DNA of 64,000 nucleotides from Lachnospira pectinoschiza. Its GTDB lineage: Bacteria; Bacillota; Clostridia; Lachnospirales; Lachnospiraceae. Shown in pieces: positions 59,044 through 64,000 of the stretch. The number at the start of each line of letters is the position of its first letter. Position 1 is the stretch's first letter. The stretch covers positions 248,001 to 312,000 of the forward strand of contig NZ_JAJCRR010000004.1 in assembly GCF_020564355.1 (NCBI RefSeq). The letters are read 5' to 3'. The translations under genes were made by a program, and so were the position numbers. The notes below the pieces were generated by a model that did no database searches, was not told where the DNA came from, and saw only the letters and a program-made list of their open reading frames with translations.

Positions 59044-59511
59044 CTAGTACCTTATCAAAAATATATTTACAATACTTTTCAACTTTGCAGTCATCAGACT
59101 AATGGGACGGCGAACCGGGCGCAGAAACAGCCAGAATCCGGAAAGAATCCGGTAAACCGGGTGATTTACGGAAAAAGAATGTCCGTTGCGGATAATATGT
59201 ATCAGTTTTCCGCTAATCTGCGAAGCGGTCAGAGGTCCTTCCACTGCGGTCTGATTATCTCCCACCGTATAAAAGCCGTCCTTTGTAATACGGCAGATCC
59301 GGTGTAAAACCAGTATACCGTTTTCCCTGCGGTATAAAATGACATCACCTTTTTTTAGCCGGTCACAGTCCGCTTTTTCAATGACGGCAGAATCCCTGCC
59401 GGGCACAAAAAGCGGATACATACTGTAGCCCTGCGGCTGAACCTGAATGGTATGGTTTTCCAACAATTCAGGAATTGTACGAGGTAAAGATTCCGAAGTA
59501 TTTGTCTGCAT
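59044..59511 (-). CDS. S26/S24-like peptidase with Ser-His pair
   Basis: The 155-residue protein has the signal peptidase-like nucleophile box QGYSMYPLF (Ser30) and LVLHRICRI with His70, then the GDN at 84-86. The usual catalytic Lys is replaced by His, as in SipW/archaeal-type peptidases. A C-terminal hydrophobic patch (about 119-132) may touch the membrane. It lies eight bases after the stop of precursor peptide 1, so leader cutting is the likely job (inference). ATG 59511 follows AGGA by six bases. Confidence 0.78.
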   Translation of the reverse strand: MQTNTSESLPRTIPELLENHTIQVQPQGYSMYPLFVPGRDSAVIEKADCDRLKKGDVILYRRENGILVLHRICRITKDGFYTVGDNQTAVEGPLTASQISGKLIHIIRNGHSFSVNHPVYRILSGFWLFLRPVRRPISLMTAKLKSIVNIFLIRY

Positions 59512-59519
59512 CACTTGTC

Positions 59520-59750
59520 CTACTGCTTTTCCGGCATATTGTCAGGACATCCGTTATAATCAGAACGGAATGTGCTTTCGGCAAGCTTAGAAGCCGTACC
59601 GCCGGATTTAGAACAGGCCTGACAGGTATCAGCGCCGGGATTTGCTTCCGTTCTGCCAAAGCGACAGACAGTTTTATCACCGCTTGCCATAAAAATACCT
59701 TCTGCCTGTTCAGGAACAACATGAATCATTGGTTTTTCATATGCAGACAT
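59520..59750 (-). CDS. Putative RiPP precursor peptide 1
   Basis: The 76-residue peptide starts MSAYEKPMIHVVPEQAEGIF and then MASGD. Its leader resembles that of peptide 2 (YEKP, EG, ASGD). The C-terminal half has cysteines at 29, 43, 46 and 68, and DYNGCPDNMPEKQ at the end. GGAGG precedes it and it has its own promoter. The S26 peptidase gene follows at once. No maturase acting on it is known from this window. The precursor role is inferred from size, leader and context. Confidence 0.65.
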   Translation of the reverse strand: MSAYEKPMIHVVPEQAEGIFMASGDKTVCRFGRTEANPGADTCQACSKSGGTASKLAESTFRSDYNGCPDNMPEKQ

Positions 59751-59789
59751 AATAAATTACCTCCATAAATGAATCTTATACTTAATTAA

Positions 59790-59819
59790 ATTATAAGTCG
59801 TAAAGCCTGCTATTGTCAA
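59790..59819 (-). promoter_or_regulatory. Promoter of precursor peptide 1
   Basis: On the minus strand TTGACA and TATAAT are 18 bases apart, about 40 bases before the start codon. It lies in the divergent gap with the PqqD-kinase gene. Confidence 0.8.
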
Positions 59820-59905
59820 GGAAATGCAATAATGATATGATAAAAAAGCGTTTAAGAAAGCATATGAAAAAAGTAATATAGAAATGAAGAAAGGCGGATG
59901 TGCAG

Positions 59906-61174
59906 ATGAAAACAAGGGCGGGTTATGTGATAAGACAGCTTGCGGATACATTTTATATTATACCGACAGGACAGCGGATTGCAGACAGGCGCCGTTGTTT
60001 AAAAATCAATCAGACCGGCTGTGTCATCTGGGACTTGTTACAAAAGGATTTATCATGGGAAGAACTGTTATCTGCCTATACGGAATATGTGAAAAGTATT
60101 GAAATGACAGAGGACACCAAAACCGTGAAACTCGCATCTATAGGCGAAGAAGCTTCCACAGTCACAGCAGCTTCCATAAGCAGTGATTTAAGTACATATG
60201 TGCTGACGCTGTTTCAGTTTGGCATGATACAGGCTTCCGCTAAGGAAATGCAGGCATTTCCGTTTGCTCCGTTTCAGGCAAAGGAAAATGCGTATTACTG
60301 CCGTTACAATATCGCAGGCATTCAGGTGCATTATAAAGGCAGAAAGGAATGGCTTCATGCGTTTTTTGAACCTTTTTTAGAGGACGGAAAAGAAAATCCG
60401 TCAGCTCATACGGTTAAGCAAAGCGGTATTTCCCAGAGCTGGCGTGTCAGAGTGCTGTCAGAAGTCCCGGAAATTACAGGTGAACTGCTGTTGTTTGGCA
60501 GTCAGTTAGATGTTTACCGGTGCAGTGGGGATTATATGCTGCGTTTTCCGTCCAATCATCATCTGGCATTGTGTACACTCTCCTTTGACGGTAAAGAAGC
60601 GGTATTTTATTATGACGGCTCGACGCAGCAGGAAGCAGTTGATGAACTGTTTTATGGTTTCCGCGCGGCATTTTTTTATTTTGCGGCACTGCACGGTAAA
60701 TATGCACTGCACTCAGCTTCCAACTATTATCAAGAAAAGGCGTGGCTGTATTCGGCATCATCAGGTACGGGAAAAACGACCCATGTTAAATTGTGGGAAA
60801 AGCTTTATGCCGTACAGGTATTAAATGGTGATCTGAATCTGCTCGGTATGGAAAAGGACGAAGTCTTTGTCTATGGGATTCCATGGTGCGGGACTTCCGG
60901 TGTCTATACAACGAAAAAATACCCGCTTGGCGGCATTATTCTTTTAAAACGAGGAACGGAGAACCGGGTCTGTAAACTGCCTCAGGACGAAAGACAGCTT
61001 TACACCGCACAGCGTATGATTTCACCGGCATGGACAGAAAAACAGGTTGATGACAGTCTTTTATTTGCAGAAAAACTTTCGGACCGTATTCCAATCTGTC
61101 AGCTTTACTGTACGCAGGAACCGTCTGCGGCGGCTGTGATGAAAGAATATATTGATAAATATTTAACAATATAA
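59906..61174 (+). CDS. PqqD-like and HPr kinase-like fusion protein
   Basis: The 422-residue protein has an N-terminal PqqD-like peptide-binding domain (residues 1-110, with CLKINQTGCVIWDLL). A C-terminal HPr kinase-like domain has H269, the P-loop SASSGTGKTTH (283-293), ND at 308-309 and GIPWCGTSG (324-332). PqqD domains bind leader peptides in RiPP pathways, and HPr kinase-like proteins phosphorylate peptides in some lasso peptide loci. It may bind and phosphorylate one of the two precursors, but this is inferred. ATG 59906 follows GGCGG by eight bases. Confidence 0.75.
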   Translation: MKTRAGYVIRQLADTFYIIPTGQRIADRRRCLKINQTGCVIWDLLQKDLSWEELLSAYTEYVKSIEMTEDTKTVKLASIGEEASTVTAASISSDLSTYVLTLFQFGMIQASAKEMQAFPFAPFQAKENAYYCRYNIAGIQVHYKGRKEWLHAFFEPFLEDGKENPSAHTVKQSGISQSWRVRVLSEVPEITGELLLFGSQLDVYRCSGDYMLRFPSNHHLALCTLSFDGKEAVFYYDGSTQQEAVDELFYGFRAAFFYFAALHGKYALHSASNYYQEKAWLYSASSGTGKTTHVKLWEKLYAVQVLNGDLNLLGMEKDEVFVYGIPWCGTSGVYTTKKYPLGGIILLKRGTENRVCKLPQDERQLYTAQRMISPAWTEKQVDDSLLFAEKLSDRIPICQLYCTQEPSAAAVMKEYIDKYLTI

Positions 61175-61241
61175 TGACGGTGCGTAAAGGCGGTTGGTTG
61201 GCAGAAAAAAAGGACTAGCATATATTATTAAGGAAGGAAAA

Positions 61242-63041
61242 ATGAAGAAAAAAATAAAATGGATTTGTGAGCGGCTAAAAAGCGGGCGGTTTAAGCAGCT
61301 TTGGATTCAGACGGTATGGATTTATTCGTATGTGAGAATGTACTGGAAAGAAATCGTGTTTTACACGGGAACGGGTCTTCTCGGTACGATAATCGGCCTG
61401 GTAAGCAGTCTGCTCTCCAAAGATTTGGTTGATTTGATTACCGGACATCAGGCTTCGCGGCTTGTTATGACTTTTGTGTGGTATATCGCATTTTCAGCCG
61501 GAAATATCTGTGTGACACAGTTGTTAAATTATCTGTCGAACATGATTTCGTTAAAGGTAGATCAGGAAATGAAAGCAGATATTTTTCAGAAAATGCTGAC
61601 AACGCGGTTAGAACCGTTAATGGCATATCATACCGGAGATTTGCTGACACGCTGGAGCAGTGATGTATCCGTGATTTCATCCGGTGTGTTAAACTGGATT
61701 CCGAATCTGATTATTTACACAGCAAAATTTATTACGTCGTTTGCGGTCGTATTTTACTATGATGTCACATTTGCCCTGCTGGCACTGATTGGGATTCCGG
61801 TGAGCATCGTGATGTCAAAGACACTGCTGTCTAAAATGCAGGCCAATAATAAACAGAGTGCAGCAATGAATGCAAAAATGTCGGGATTTCATCAGGAAAC
61901 CTTTTCAAATATTCAGGCAATTAAGGCATTTGATTTAATACCACTCTACGTCTGCAGATTACAGGAACTGCAAAAAGACTATTTTTCGATGAAAAAGAAA
62001 TTTCAGAAGCTCAGTGCAATGACATCAATTATGATGTCATTTGTCGGCATTGTCGTTTCGTACAGCTGTTACGCACTCGGCATTTACCGGGTGTTTACCG
62101 GGGCGATTACGTACGGTACGATGACGCTGTTTCTATCGCTGTCCGGCAGTCTTACCAGTACGCTCAATGCGCTGATTGCCATGGTTCCGACAGCCGTTTC
62201 GATAACGACTTCGGCAGGCAGGCTGATGGATATTTTAGACATGCCGCATGAAGATTTTTCGGAAAGAAAACAGGCTGAAGTCTTTTATAAGAAAAATAAG
62301 CGGGCGGGAATCGGTGTCTGCATGGAAAATGTATCGTATGCATATCATACCGGAAAAAAGGTATTAACAGACGTGGATTTTTGGGCAGAGCCGGGACAGC
62401 TTACGGGACTGGTCGGGGCTTCCGGCGGCGGAAAGACGACAATGCTTCGTCTTTTACTGTCTTTACTTGAACCACAGCAGGGAACGATGAAGCTATATGC
62501 AGGTGATGCCGGTCAGGACGGAAACAGCCAGTTCCAGAAGGATTCACAGACACTGCCGCTCTCTCCTGCCACCAGACAGCTTTATGCATATGTACCGCAG
62601 GGAAATGCGATGTTTTCGGGAACGATTGCCGACAATATGCGAAGTGTCAAACCGGATGCCACAGATAAAGAAATCATAGACTGTTTAAAAAAAGCGTGTG
62701 CATGGGAATTTATCGGACAGCTTCCGGATACCATTTATGAAAAAATCGGGGAACGCGGGAATAATTTTTCAGAAGGGCAGGCACAGCGCCTTTCCATTGC
62801 AAGGGCACTGCTTAAAAATGCACCGGTACTGCTCCTCGATGAAGCCACTTCGGCACTCGACATTGAAACGGAAAAACAGGTTTTAAAAAATATTATGGAA
62901 GATTCACTGCCGAGAACGTGCATTGTTACGACACACCGCCCGACAGCACTGAAATTATGTAAAAATGTATATGCCATACAGGATACACGCTGCAGGCAGC
63001 TTTTGCCGGAAGAAATACAAAAAATCATCAGGGACTTTTAA
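61242..63041 (+). CDS. ABC transporter, exporter type with fused membrane and ATPase domains
   Basis: The 599-residue protein has six membrane segments at about 35-320. The ATPase domain has Walker A GASGGGKTT, the signature FSEGQAQRLSIARAL and LLLDEATSALD. There is no N-terminal C39 peptidase domain, so leader cutting would need another protein such as the S26 peptidase. It follows the PqqD-kinase gene and probably exports the mature peptide (inference). ATG 61242 is preceded by AAGGAAGGA. Confidence 0.87.
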   Translation: MKKKIKWICERLKSGRFKQLWIQTVWIYSYVRMYWKEIVFYTGTGLLGTIIGLVSSLLSKDLVDLITGHQASRLVMTFVWYIAFSAGNICVTQLLNYLSNMISLKVDQEMKADIFQKMLTTRLEPLMAYHTGDLLTRWSSDVSVISSGVLNWIPNLIIYTAKFITSFAVVFYYDVTFALLALIGIPVSIVMSKTLLSKMQANNKQSAAMNAKMSGFHQETFSNIQAIKAFDLIPLYVCRLQELQKDYFSMKKKFQKLSAMTSIMMSFVGIVVSYSCYALGIYRVFTGAITYGTMTLFLSLSGSLTSTLNALIAMVPTAVSITTSAGRLMDILDMPHEDFSERKQAEVFYKKNKRAGIGVCMENVSYAYHTGKKVLTDVDFWAEPGQLTGLVGASGGGKTTMLRLLLSLLEPQQGTMKLYAGDAGQDGNSQFQKDSQTLPLSPATRQLYAYVPQGNAMFSGTIADNMRSVKPDATDKEIIDCLKKACAWEFIGQLPDTIYEKIGERGNNFSEGQAQRLSIARALLKNAPVLLLDEATSALDIETEKQVLKNIMEDSLPRTCIVTTHRPTALKLCKNVYAIQDTRCRQLLPEEIQKIIRDF

Positions 63042-63058
63042 AAATCCCTGATGATTTT
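63021..63058. terminator. Bidirectional terminator
   Basis: AAAATCATCAGGGA and TCCCTGATGATTTT pair perfectly over 14 bases and overlap the ABC stop codon. T tracts on both strands serve the convergent ABC and precursor 2 genes. Confidence 0.9.
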
Positions 63059-63089
63059 TTGTATGCCGCCTGTTACGGATTCTTATGTA

Positions 63090-63434
63090 TTAGCACATAC
63101 CGACATCGCCCCAGTCAATCGCATCATAAGGCTGGTGTCCGATACGCTCCCAGTTCGGATAGCGGTTGCCGTTATCAACATCGTAGCTTCCCCAGTATTT
63201 TTCAAGCTGGAGTCCGCAGCCGTTGTAACGGAAAGCCGGACATCCGTTACAGCCGAAACGCTGGATATAAGAAGTTGTATTATTATAGTCCGGTGCATGC
63301 CATACACCATTCATGTATTTGCTGTCGCATTTCGGTGCGGAAACCCCGCTGTCTGTATTGTCACCGCTGGCAGCATATACCCCTTCATAATGCTCCTCTG
63401 TGTCGATAATGACAGGTTTTTCATAGTTTGCCAT
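63090..63434 (-). CDS. Putative RiPP precursor peptide 2
   Basis: The 114-residue peptide begins MANYEKPVIIDTEEHYEGVY and continues AASGD. The leader resembles peptide 1. The long core is rich in Tyr (11), Trp (4) and Gly, and has Cys at 36, 62, 65, 73 and 114 (GCNGCPAFRYNGCG; terminal GMC). GGAGG precedes it and it has its own promoter. The function is unknown. Its core is unlike that of peptide 1, except for YNGC in both. Confidence 0.65.
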   Translation of the reverse strand: MANYEKPVIIDTEEHYEGVYAASGDNTDSGVSAPKCDSKYMNGVWHAPDYNNTTSYIQRFGCNGCPAFRYNGCGLQLEKYWGSYDVDNGNRYPNWERIGHQPYDAIDWGDVGMC

Positions 63435-63470
63435 AACTGATAAACCTCCAATTCATTACATTTCTGTATT

Positions 63471-63499
63471 AGAATAATCCTTTTTATTTAGTCAGTCAA
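63471..63499 (-). promoter_or_regulatory. Promoter of precursor peptide 2
   Basis: On the minus strand TTGACT and TATTCT are 17 bases apart, between the nucleotidyltransferase-like gene and the peptide. Confidence 0.6.
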
Positions 63500-63509
63500 T
63501 ACTTTTGAC

Positions 63510-64000
63510 CTATTTTTCAAAAAGTTTTAAATCCCGCAAAAGACGGCTGCGCTGGGAAGCCTTTTTAAAAATGGACAAGGTACTTGTCTTGCGGATTCTG
63601 CGGTTGTTTCTCAAAAAACGGATAAGTGTTGTGCACCACAGATATGGCCATAAAAGGATACAGTCGGAATGGCTGTTTCCCAGTTTCATCTGATGGTGGA
63701 ATTCACAAAGAAACCCTGTCAGACTGCTGTTTTTTAAAAATACCATACGGTTAGTGCTGGAATGTCCGAATTCTTCCGCTTCCAGTATTTCATCCATTAA
63801 GGCTGCATAGTGCTTGCGGTTGTGGGAAAGAGCCTCCTTTTCAGAAACATTTCCAAATAAAAATGAAATCTGCGTGTAAGGCAGTCCCAGATACAGTACA
63901 CACAGCGCCGTAACCGCTTTCGCAAAATTTTCAAGCCGTGTTTTTTTTAGAAGCTGTAAAAAGACCTCTTTTGTGTTCTGTGAATGGCCGCGTTTCCAAA
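63510..64000 (-). CDS. Nucleotidyltransferase-family protein, C-terminus only
   Basis: The minus-strand frame is open to the window edge. The visible 162 residues include KKTRLENFAKAVTALCVLYL followed by GLPYTQISFLFGNV. This resembles the helical C-terminal region of the NTP_transf_5 family (PF14907), which is often found in RiPP and lasso peptide loci. The catalytic part lies outside the window, so activity is not shown. The gene is upstream of precursor 2 on the same strand. Confidence 0.6.
   Translation of the reverse strand, partial: WKRGHSQNTKEVFLQLLKKTRLENFAKAVTALCVLYLGLPYTQISFLFGNVSEKEALSHNRKHYAALMDEILEAEEFGHSSTNRMVFLKNSSLTGFLCEFHHQMKLGNSHSDCILLWPYLWCTTLIRFLRNNRRIRKTSTLSIFKKASQRSRLLRDLKLFEK

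Follow-up and report, generated by a model that had tools for sequence, protein, structure and literature searches.

The clusters with which the locus described here is best compared are those of linear polyphosphorylated peptides (LPP), lppAKBSDN, published in May 2026 (Popov et al. 2026, PMC13381572). As laid out in the main text of that paper, the YxxP leader of the precursor is bound by LppB, a recognition element (RRE) for ribosomally synthesized and post-translationally modified peptides (RiPPs), and the HprK-like kinase LppK, the primary modifying enzyme, adds one to four phosphates (Ser3). The SpI-like peptidase LppS cuts after F-E-T upon presentation by LppB, with unphosphorylated precursor being poorly cut, LppD exports the product, and LppN was without effect in the authors' host. 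LPP precursors may be 35-200 aa in length, one to three per cluster, with highly variable C termini, a leader consensus of YxxPxVLxHQxIxFETxxS and Px9Fx[T/A] as the search motif. A related set of genes occupies positions 59,044 to 64,000 of a stretch of 64,000 nucleotides from Lachnospira pectinoschiza (the window), in which two precursors accompany a fused RRE-kinase, a peptidase, an exporter and a nucleotidyltransferase. This locus most likely directs the leader-guided modification and export of small folded proteins, as a Lachnospiraceae variant of LPP-type pathways that would probably serve the cell-surface polysaccharide layer.

The original prediction, made from the letters of the window alone, held that this combination did not match a class familiar to its author, a statement overtaken by the closely similar LPP clusters. 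In both, an SpI/SipW-like peptidase is encoded with an RRE, an HprK-like kinase, a nucleoside triphosphate (NTP) transferase and an MsbA-like exporter, with the caveat that the kinase matches HprK_rel_A below the cut-off and that the window contains only part of the NTP gene. Both have a YxxP leader and occur in polysaccharide loci, here the loci of relatives, and a macrolactam cyclase is not among the matches listed for the kinase contigs of 24 genomes. The RRE, however, is discrete in LPP as described in the main text and is fused to the kinase here, both in the window and, among 200 genomes, in 14, although split forms exist too; no lasso leader peptidase is over the cut-off in 24 genomes; 12 residues rather than 9 separate the Pro from the aromatic residue; the predicted acceptor Ser adjoins the cut; and conserved cargos from several families take the place of variable C termini. 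With a leader that departs from the LPP consensus, no discrete RRE and different C termini, the locus appears from these comparisons to be a variant set beside LPP and is not filed here as a member. The word Lachnospiraceae is absent from the main text of PMC13381572, the supplements of which may list such clusters, and among the papers that searches of the open-licence PMC literature for the combination listed, no other was found to describe the gene set. Paeninodin-like and Bsf lasso clusters, as described in the portions consulted of PMC7533575 and PMC10368454, likewise combine a PqqD-type RRE, an HprK-like kinase, an NTP transferase, an ABC (ATP-binding cassette) exporter and a [Y/W]xxP leader, but here there is no B2 protein over the cut-off (0/24 genomes) and no asparagine synthetase listed on the kinase contigs of these fragmented genomes, and the leader peptidase is of S26 type and the cargo protein-sized. 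The set also differs from the C39-type exporters in that no C39 domain is among the Pfam matches, no Gly-Gly precedes the mature part and the S26 peptidase is separate. Leader-dependent ABC export of small proteins is familiar from those C39 exporters, which act on double-glycine leaders.

A leader common to both precursors, as originally proposed, is readily apparent (MSAYEKP...EGIFMASGD and MANYEKP...EGVYAASGD). Across the locus family it follows the pattern YxxP-x12-[YF]-x-A|SG, with EG[VI][YF]xASG, and is matched by 59 of the 65 precursor 1 homologues. All 56 distinct leaders of the loci have Ser23 and Gly24, irrespective of cargo, as do 74 of 76 precursor 2 and 45 of 48 precursor 1 homologues, with gaps accounting for the remainder; Ser23 is the sole Ser invariant across all three family alignments. 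The loci and cargo listings were chosen with the leader pattern, so that the motif is selected by construction in these, whereas the column counts come from a profile independent of the pattern that covers only leaders recognised at E up to 0.05. Strings of the leader were not found in the open-licence PMC literature. Because [YF]-x-A before the invariant Ser-Gly resembles the F-x-[T/A] of LPP, cleavage is predicted after A22, leaving Ser23 as residue 1 of the mature product, and this Ser, common to the cargo families, is the predicted phosphate acceptor.

The association of the leader with the fusion was evaluated in 200 genomes from the family of a relative, G001 (Lachnospiraceae). The leader profile is found in 12 and a full-length fusion in 14 of these, 11 of which are shared (Fisher p 1.1e-14), with leader and kinase no more than 5 kb apart in 10 of these 11. 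The originally named refuting condition, a leader widespread without these neighbours, was not borne out, 11 of the 12 leader genomes having the fused kinase. Fusion counts are based on the best 9 candidates per genome in the family and the best 4 in the phylum, such that a lower-ranked fusion could escape; in the other family and phylum scans all or nearly all candidates were scored, among the matches listed. A draw of 398 genomes from the phylum has leader and full-length fusion together just in G001 itself. Scanning genome contigs with the precursor 2 (CDSKY) alignment gave 20 loci, with the fusion at 11, the exporter at 13, the S26 peptidase at 10 and the NTP gene at 7, several of these stretches ending at contig ends. 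An RRE-kinase was matched in all 19 genomes behind these loci, nearly full length in 17 and partial at contig ends in G006 and G009. As leader and full-length fusion share 11 genomes, mostly within 5 kb, we read the parts of the locus as one leader-dependent pathway. The originally proposed single peptide pathway therefore stands as a pathway but not as a peptide one, since the mature parts appear to be conserved domains and not short variable cores. That the modules can come apart is seen in the remaining shared genome, G017, where leader and fused kinase are on the same contig (C87; loci L135 and L047) but a cargo-S26-ABC set lies at a distance of ~36 kb from the kinase. In G065 the fusion is split.

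The assignment of a PqqD/HprK fusion is upheld by homologues of the window protein, those in loci L001 and L003 matching PqqD at E-values of 5.6e-10 and 9.6e-11, whereas the match of the window protein itself is weak (0.22). The PDB chains brought up by profiles of the fusion and its RRE part include TbiB1, PbaB1, TfuB1 and LppB; scores with the RRE part are weak (TbiB1 0.00021, LppB 0.11) with unrelated chains interspersed, and the 34 solved structures that the fusion profile listed do not include HprK. Within 12 aligned sequences, D94 and L102 of the RRE are invariant and position 98 is Phe in 11 and Tyr in the window. The D94/F98/L102 spacing is that of LppB D70/F74/M78, by the residue numbering of the paper and not by alignment, and in its main text these LppB residues are reported to contact the leader Tyr, Pro and Val, with D70 bonding the Tyr (PMC13381572). 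PbaB1, a reader of WxxP, has Q79 ahead of F83; the leader here is YxxP. In the kinase half, H269, the P-loop SGTGKT and NGDLN are in conserved columns of the 12 sequences, and the kinase half of the homologue in locus L121 matches HprK_rel_A (1.7e-5) and ScmC (5.8e-6), both below the cut-off. Stand-alone RRE-like proteins of 90-119 aa are encoded near the fusion at L001:17856-18128, L015:12367-12666, L016:12297-12602 and L119:7192-7551, and RRE-only matches occur in 17 of the 19 genomes behind the CDSKY loci. The split version in G065 (L131:7243-10600) has S26, RRE, kinase and ABC as separate genes, adjoins genes that by eye look like glycosyltransferases, and has no recognised precursor.

All six genes originally listed are present in the window, as confirmed by the open reading frame (ORF) listing and the sequence (Table 1). 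In locus L121 of genome G112 the genes are arranged as in the window, strands included (S26, CRFGR cargo, fusion, ABC, CDSKY cargo, NTP_transf_5), and this locus was used as a proxy for the sequence past position 64,000. The window peptidase matches sigpep_I_arch at 2.1e-13 (50.4 bits, cut-off 51.85) and SipW at 2.8e-8. Its S26-like character with a Ser-His pair is consistent with S30 and H70, which together with D85 and E91 are invariant in 11 aligned sequences including the window; S30/H70 are taken as the counterparts of LppS S29/H68, LppS itself being outside the alignment. A search of the PDB with the peptidase profile gave six matches (E up to 1), and no signal peptidase by name was among them. 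The exporter, as had been predicted, has no C39 domain among its Pfam matches, and full-length copies, 52-58% identical, are present in 12 of 20 related loci. The window portion of the nucleotidyltransferase has no Pfam match of its own, and its NTP_transf_5-like identity is borne out by 41.7% identity over 163 positions to a 404-aa protein of L013 that Pfam calls NTP_transf_5. Homologues with 32.5-43% identity are present in 7 of 20 loci, those scanned being NTP_transf_5.

Table 1. Features of the leader-dependent locus; coordinates are positions in the window.
Feature	Coordinates	Strand	Remarks
S26/SpI-like signal peptidase (LppS-like)	59044..59514	-	start GTG 59514 or ATG 59511; predicted leader peptidase
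Precursor 1, 76 aa: leader and four-Cys 'CRFGR...CQxCS...GCPDNMPE' domain	59520..59750	-	65 homologues
Precursor 1, predicted leader M1-A22	59685..59750	-	leader alignment and column counts; cleavage rule by LPP analogy
Precursor 1, Ser23 codon, predicted phospho-acceptor	59682..59684	-	
PqqD/HprK-like fusion protein	59906..61174	+	
Fusion protein, RRE (PqqD-like) half	59906..60235	+	boundary approximate
Fusion protein, HprK-related kinase half: H269, P-loop SGTGKT, NGDLN	60488..61174	+	boundary approximate; conserved columns
MsbA-type ABC exporter (LppD-like) without C39 peptidase domain	61242..63041	+	PF00664 5.3e-31, PF00005 1.5e-24
Precursor 2, 114 aa: leader and conserved four-Cys 'CDSKY' domain	63090..63434	-	95 homologues
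Precursor 2, predicted leader M1-A22	63369..63434	-	leader alignment and column counts
Precursor 2, Ser23 codon, predicted phospho-acceptor	63366..63368	-	
NTP_transf_5-type nucleotidyltransferase (LppN-like), C-terminal 162 aa	63510..64000	-	gene cut by window end

The mature parts are conserved in sequence. The CDSKY family has 18 invariant columns in 39 rows, 13 of which are behind the leader, and the CRFGR family has 22 invariant columns behind the leader in three aligned sequences. As small conserved domains, they would be better described as exported small proteins with RiPP-type handling than as peptides. Neither window precursor is matched by Pfam or NCBIfam, the alignment of 39 CDSKY members gave just two single weak matches against Pfam (0.0024, 0.015), and the structure predicted for precursor 2 is of low confidence (mean pLDDT, the predicted local distance difference test score, 66.5), leaving the fold not settled by the model, with the one chain compared giving no match. 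Once outside the cell, the conserved cysteines are probably joined in disulfides. The spacings GCxGCPA and CQxCS are also those of CxxC-type metal sites, a rather doubtful alternative given that the predicted export favours disulfides. A second, C4-type cargo is encoded in 11 of the 20 CDSKY loci; this family of relatives is possibly a CBM2-like beta-sandwich, and one cargo family of relatives may bind glycan. Two cargos of genome G163 that carry this leader, L128:7763-8176 (- strand) and L129:8474-8956 (+ strand), have mature parts that look ubiquitin-like; the L128 cargo, the one scanned, matches PF00240 at an E-value of 0.0019, below the cut-off, and a CDSKY-type cargo is additionally present. 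Leader-bearing cargos that by look fall outside the three main families are encoded at L124:6849-7253, L132:1892-2254, L133:8118-8552 and L120:4275-4661, the L133 cargo having no match in a Pfam scan. The protein database also contains many variants of the precursors of the window species with internal deletions or frameshifts and the leader kept, possibly assembly noise; hypervariability was considered on this basis and set aside, as fragments of this kind may be over-represented in word-based searches of assemblies.

By analogy with LPP biochemistry, we infer phosphorylation, cleavage and export at this locus in the following order. The YxxP of the leader would be bound by the RRE half of the fusion and the invariant Ser23 phosphorylated by the fused HprK-like kinase half. 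The SpI-like peptidase, with the leader presented by the RRE, would then cut after [YF]-x-A, making Ser23 residue 1, and the ABC exporter, itself lacking a peptidase domain, would move the mature domain out. More speculatively, NTP_transf_5 may extend the phosphate with a group derived from a nucleotide or sugar; a surface role is likewise speculative. Several observations weigh against this scheme. The chemistry is a prediction from sequence. Among the 20 CDSKY loci, 9 are without the kinase, 7 without the exporter, 10 without the S26 peptidase and 13 without the NTP gene, several being cut by contig ends; a fused kinase was not found in G163 despite its three leader cargos; G042 and G067 carry a divergent fusion with no leader found; and in G114 the cargo beside the fusion has EGIYAGSG but no YxxP. 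The leader is also without the VLxHQxIxFET of LPP and shares with it just YxxP and the aromatic-x-small element, and cleavage after A22 places the Ser at core position 1, versus position 3 in LppA. The invariant Ser-Gly could be a requirement of the peptidase instead, the third catalytic residue of which is uncertain (LppS D93 versus D85 or E91 here). The kinase has NGD where the lasso kinase paper, in the portion consulted, lists DD; in the split kinases seen in the family, NGD is present in 12 of 14 and NDD in 2 of 14.

Past NTP_transf_5, L121 encodes a 511-aa protein without a Pfam match, a Stealth protein, two DUF4832/DUF4874 proteins and a GT2-like protein below the cut-off. Of 133 ORFs no farther than 6 kb from the fusion at 24 loci, 125 were tallied, with DUF4832/DUF4874 and GT2 (7 members each) at the head, followed by epimerases (5), and ABC, GGDEF and response-regulator families (4 each); the related loci are embedded in polysaccharide surroundings. 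HD (3) and EAL (2) members are also present with the GGDEF and response-regulator proteins among these neighbours, a combination that, next to polysaccharide genes, points tentatively to regulation by cyclic-di-GMP. Of 142 neighbour families, the 25 with the most matches include no RiPP maturase. The 24 genomes surveyed for maturases are all in contigs, and absence from one contig is a limited test. Asn_synthase is present in all 24 (23 over the cut-off) and, among the matches listed, never on a kinase contig; the lasso B2 domain (Transglut_core3) is over the cut-off in none, with two weaker matches off the kinase contigs; YcaO (1/24) and LANC (3/24) are on contigs other than that of the kinase. 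Radical_SAM matches occur in 24/24. A complete listing for six genomes places one ~8.6 kb from the kinase in G005 and two on the kinase contig of G061 at >25 kb, the kinase contigs of the other four being free of any; among the matches listed for the 24 genomes, G018 has one ~30 kb away. The original prediction of no visible maturase is thus retained in that no LanC, YcaO, radical SAM or asparagine synthetase gene is conserved alongside in the loci and genomes surveyed, and is amended in that the missing maturase is probably the HprK-like kinase, because an HprK-like kinase is the primary modifying enzyme in LPP.

Cys and Ser/Thr residues in the mature parts, and Asn_synthase and Radical_SAM matches in all 24 fragmented genomes, would also accommodate a classical RiPP (lanthipeptide, sactipeptide, azole or lasso) with its maturase elsewhere in the genome. 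With the B2 domain over the cut-off in none, YcaO and LANC so infrequent, the listed Asn_synthase, YcaO and LANC matches off the kinase contigs, and the nearest radical SAM ~8.6 kb away in one of the six genomes listed in full, this is very improbable. A plain LPP cluster, yielding a linear phosphopeptide that matters for its chemistry and not its fold, with the fusion and leader differences as drift, would be in keeping with the shared gene set and locus type, and with the length and number of precursors that the main text of PMC13381572 allows; it is unlikely, given that the mature parts are conserved here, with 13 of the 18 invariant CDSKY columns, and 22 in the three CRFGR sequences, located behind the leader. 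Some weight, albeit a minor share, is due to a dedicated route for small-protein secretion in which the kinase is an export quality gate, the phosphate transient and the product not modified. One leader on several unrelated cargo families is consistent with such a gate, as is the poor cutting of unphosphorylated LPP precursor reported in PMC13381572, but NTP_transf_5 recurs alongside, at 7 of 20 CDSKY loci, suggesting a further, lasting modification.

The preferred reading, leader-guided modification and export of small folded proteins, allows a bolder extension, as a kinase and an NTP transferase occur together in a polysaccharide setting. Gut Lachnospiraceae might have a general tag-and-export system in which one leader serves unrelated domains (four-Cys, CBM2-like and even ubiquitin-like), the Ser that is to become N-terminal is phosphorylated by the RRE-kinase fusion, and NTP_transf_5 and polysaccharide enzymes then link the protein covalently to a surface glycan. 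This is a distinctly long shot; a rumen lasso paper cites, in the portion consulted, the pseudomycoidin nucleotidyltransferase in lasso peptide glycosylation (PMC7533575). If true, such joining would stand next to the sortase and lipoprotein routes as a way of anchoring proteins via an N-terminal phospho-serine. The RRE-kinase fusion could serve as a single-chain tool for leader-directed phosphorylation, and the preferred reading makes the sharp prediction that one Ser, common to the cargo families, bears phosphate. If that reading is right, RiPP-type leader recognition serves here as a protein export tag, and the 2026 LPP class would be extended from peptides of Bacilli to small conserved domains in Lachnospiraceae. 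With some of the cargos possibly being glycan-binding domains encoded in exopolysaccharide loci, it would also give a way to approach what LPPs do.

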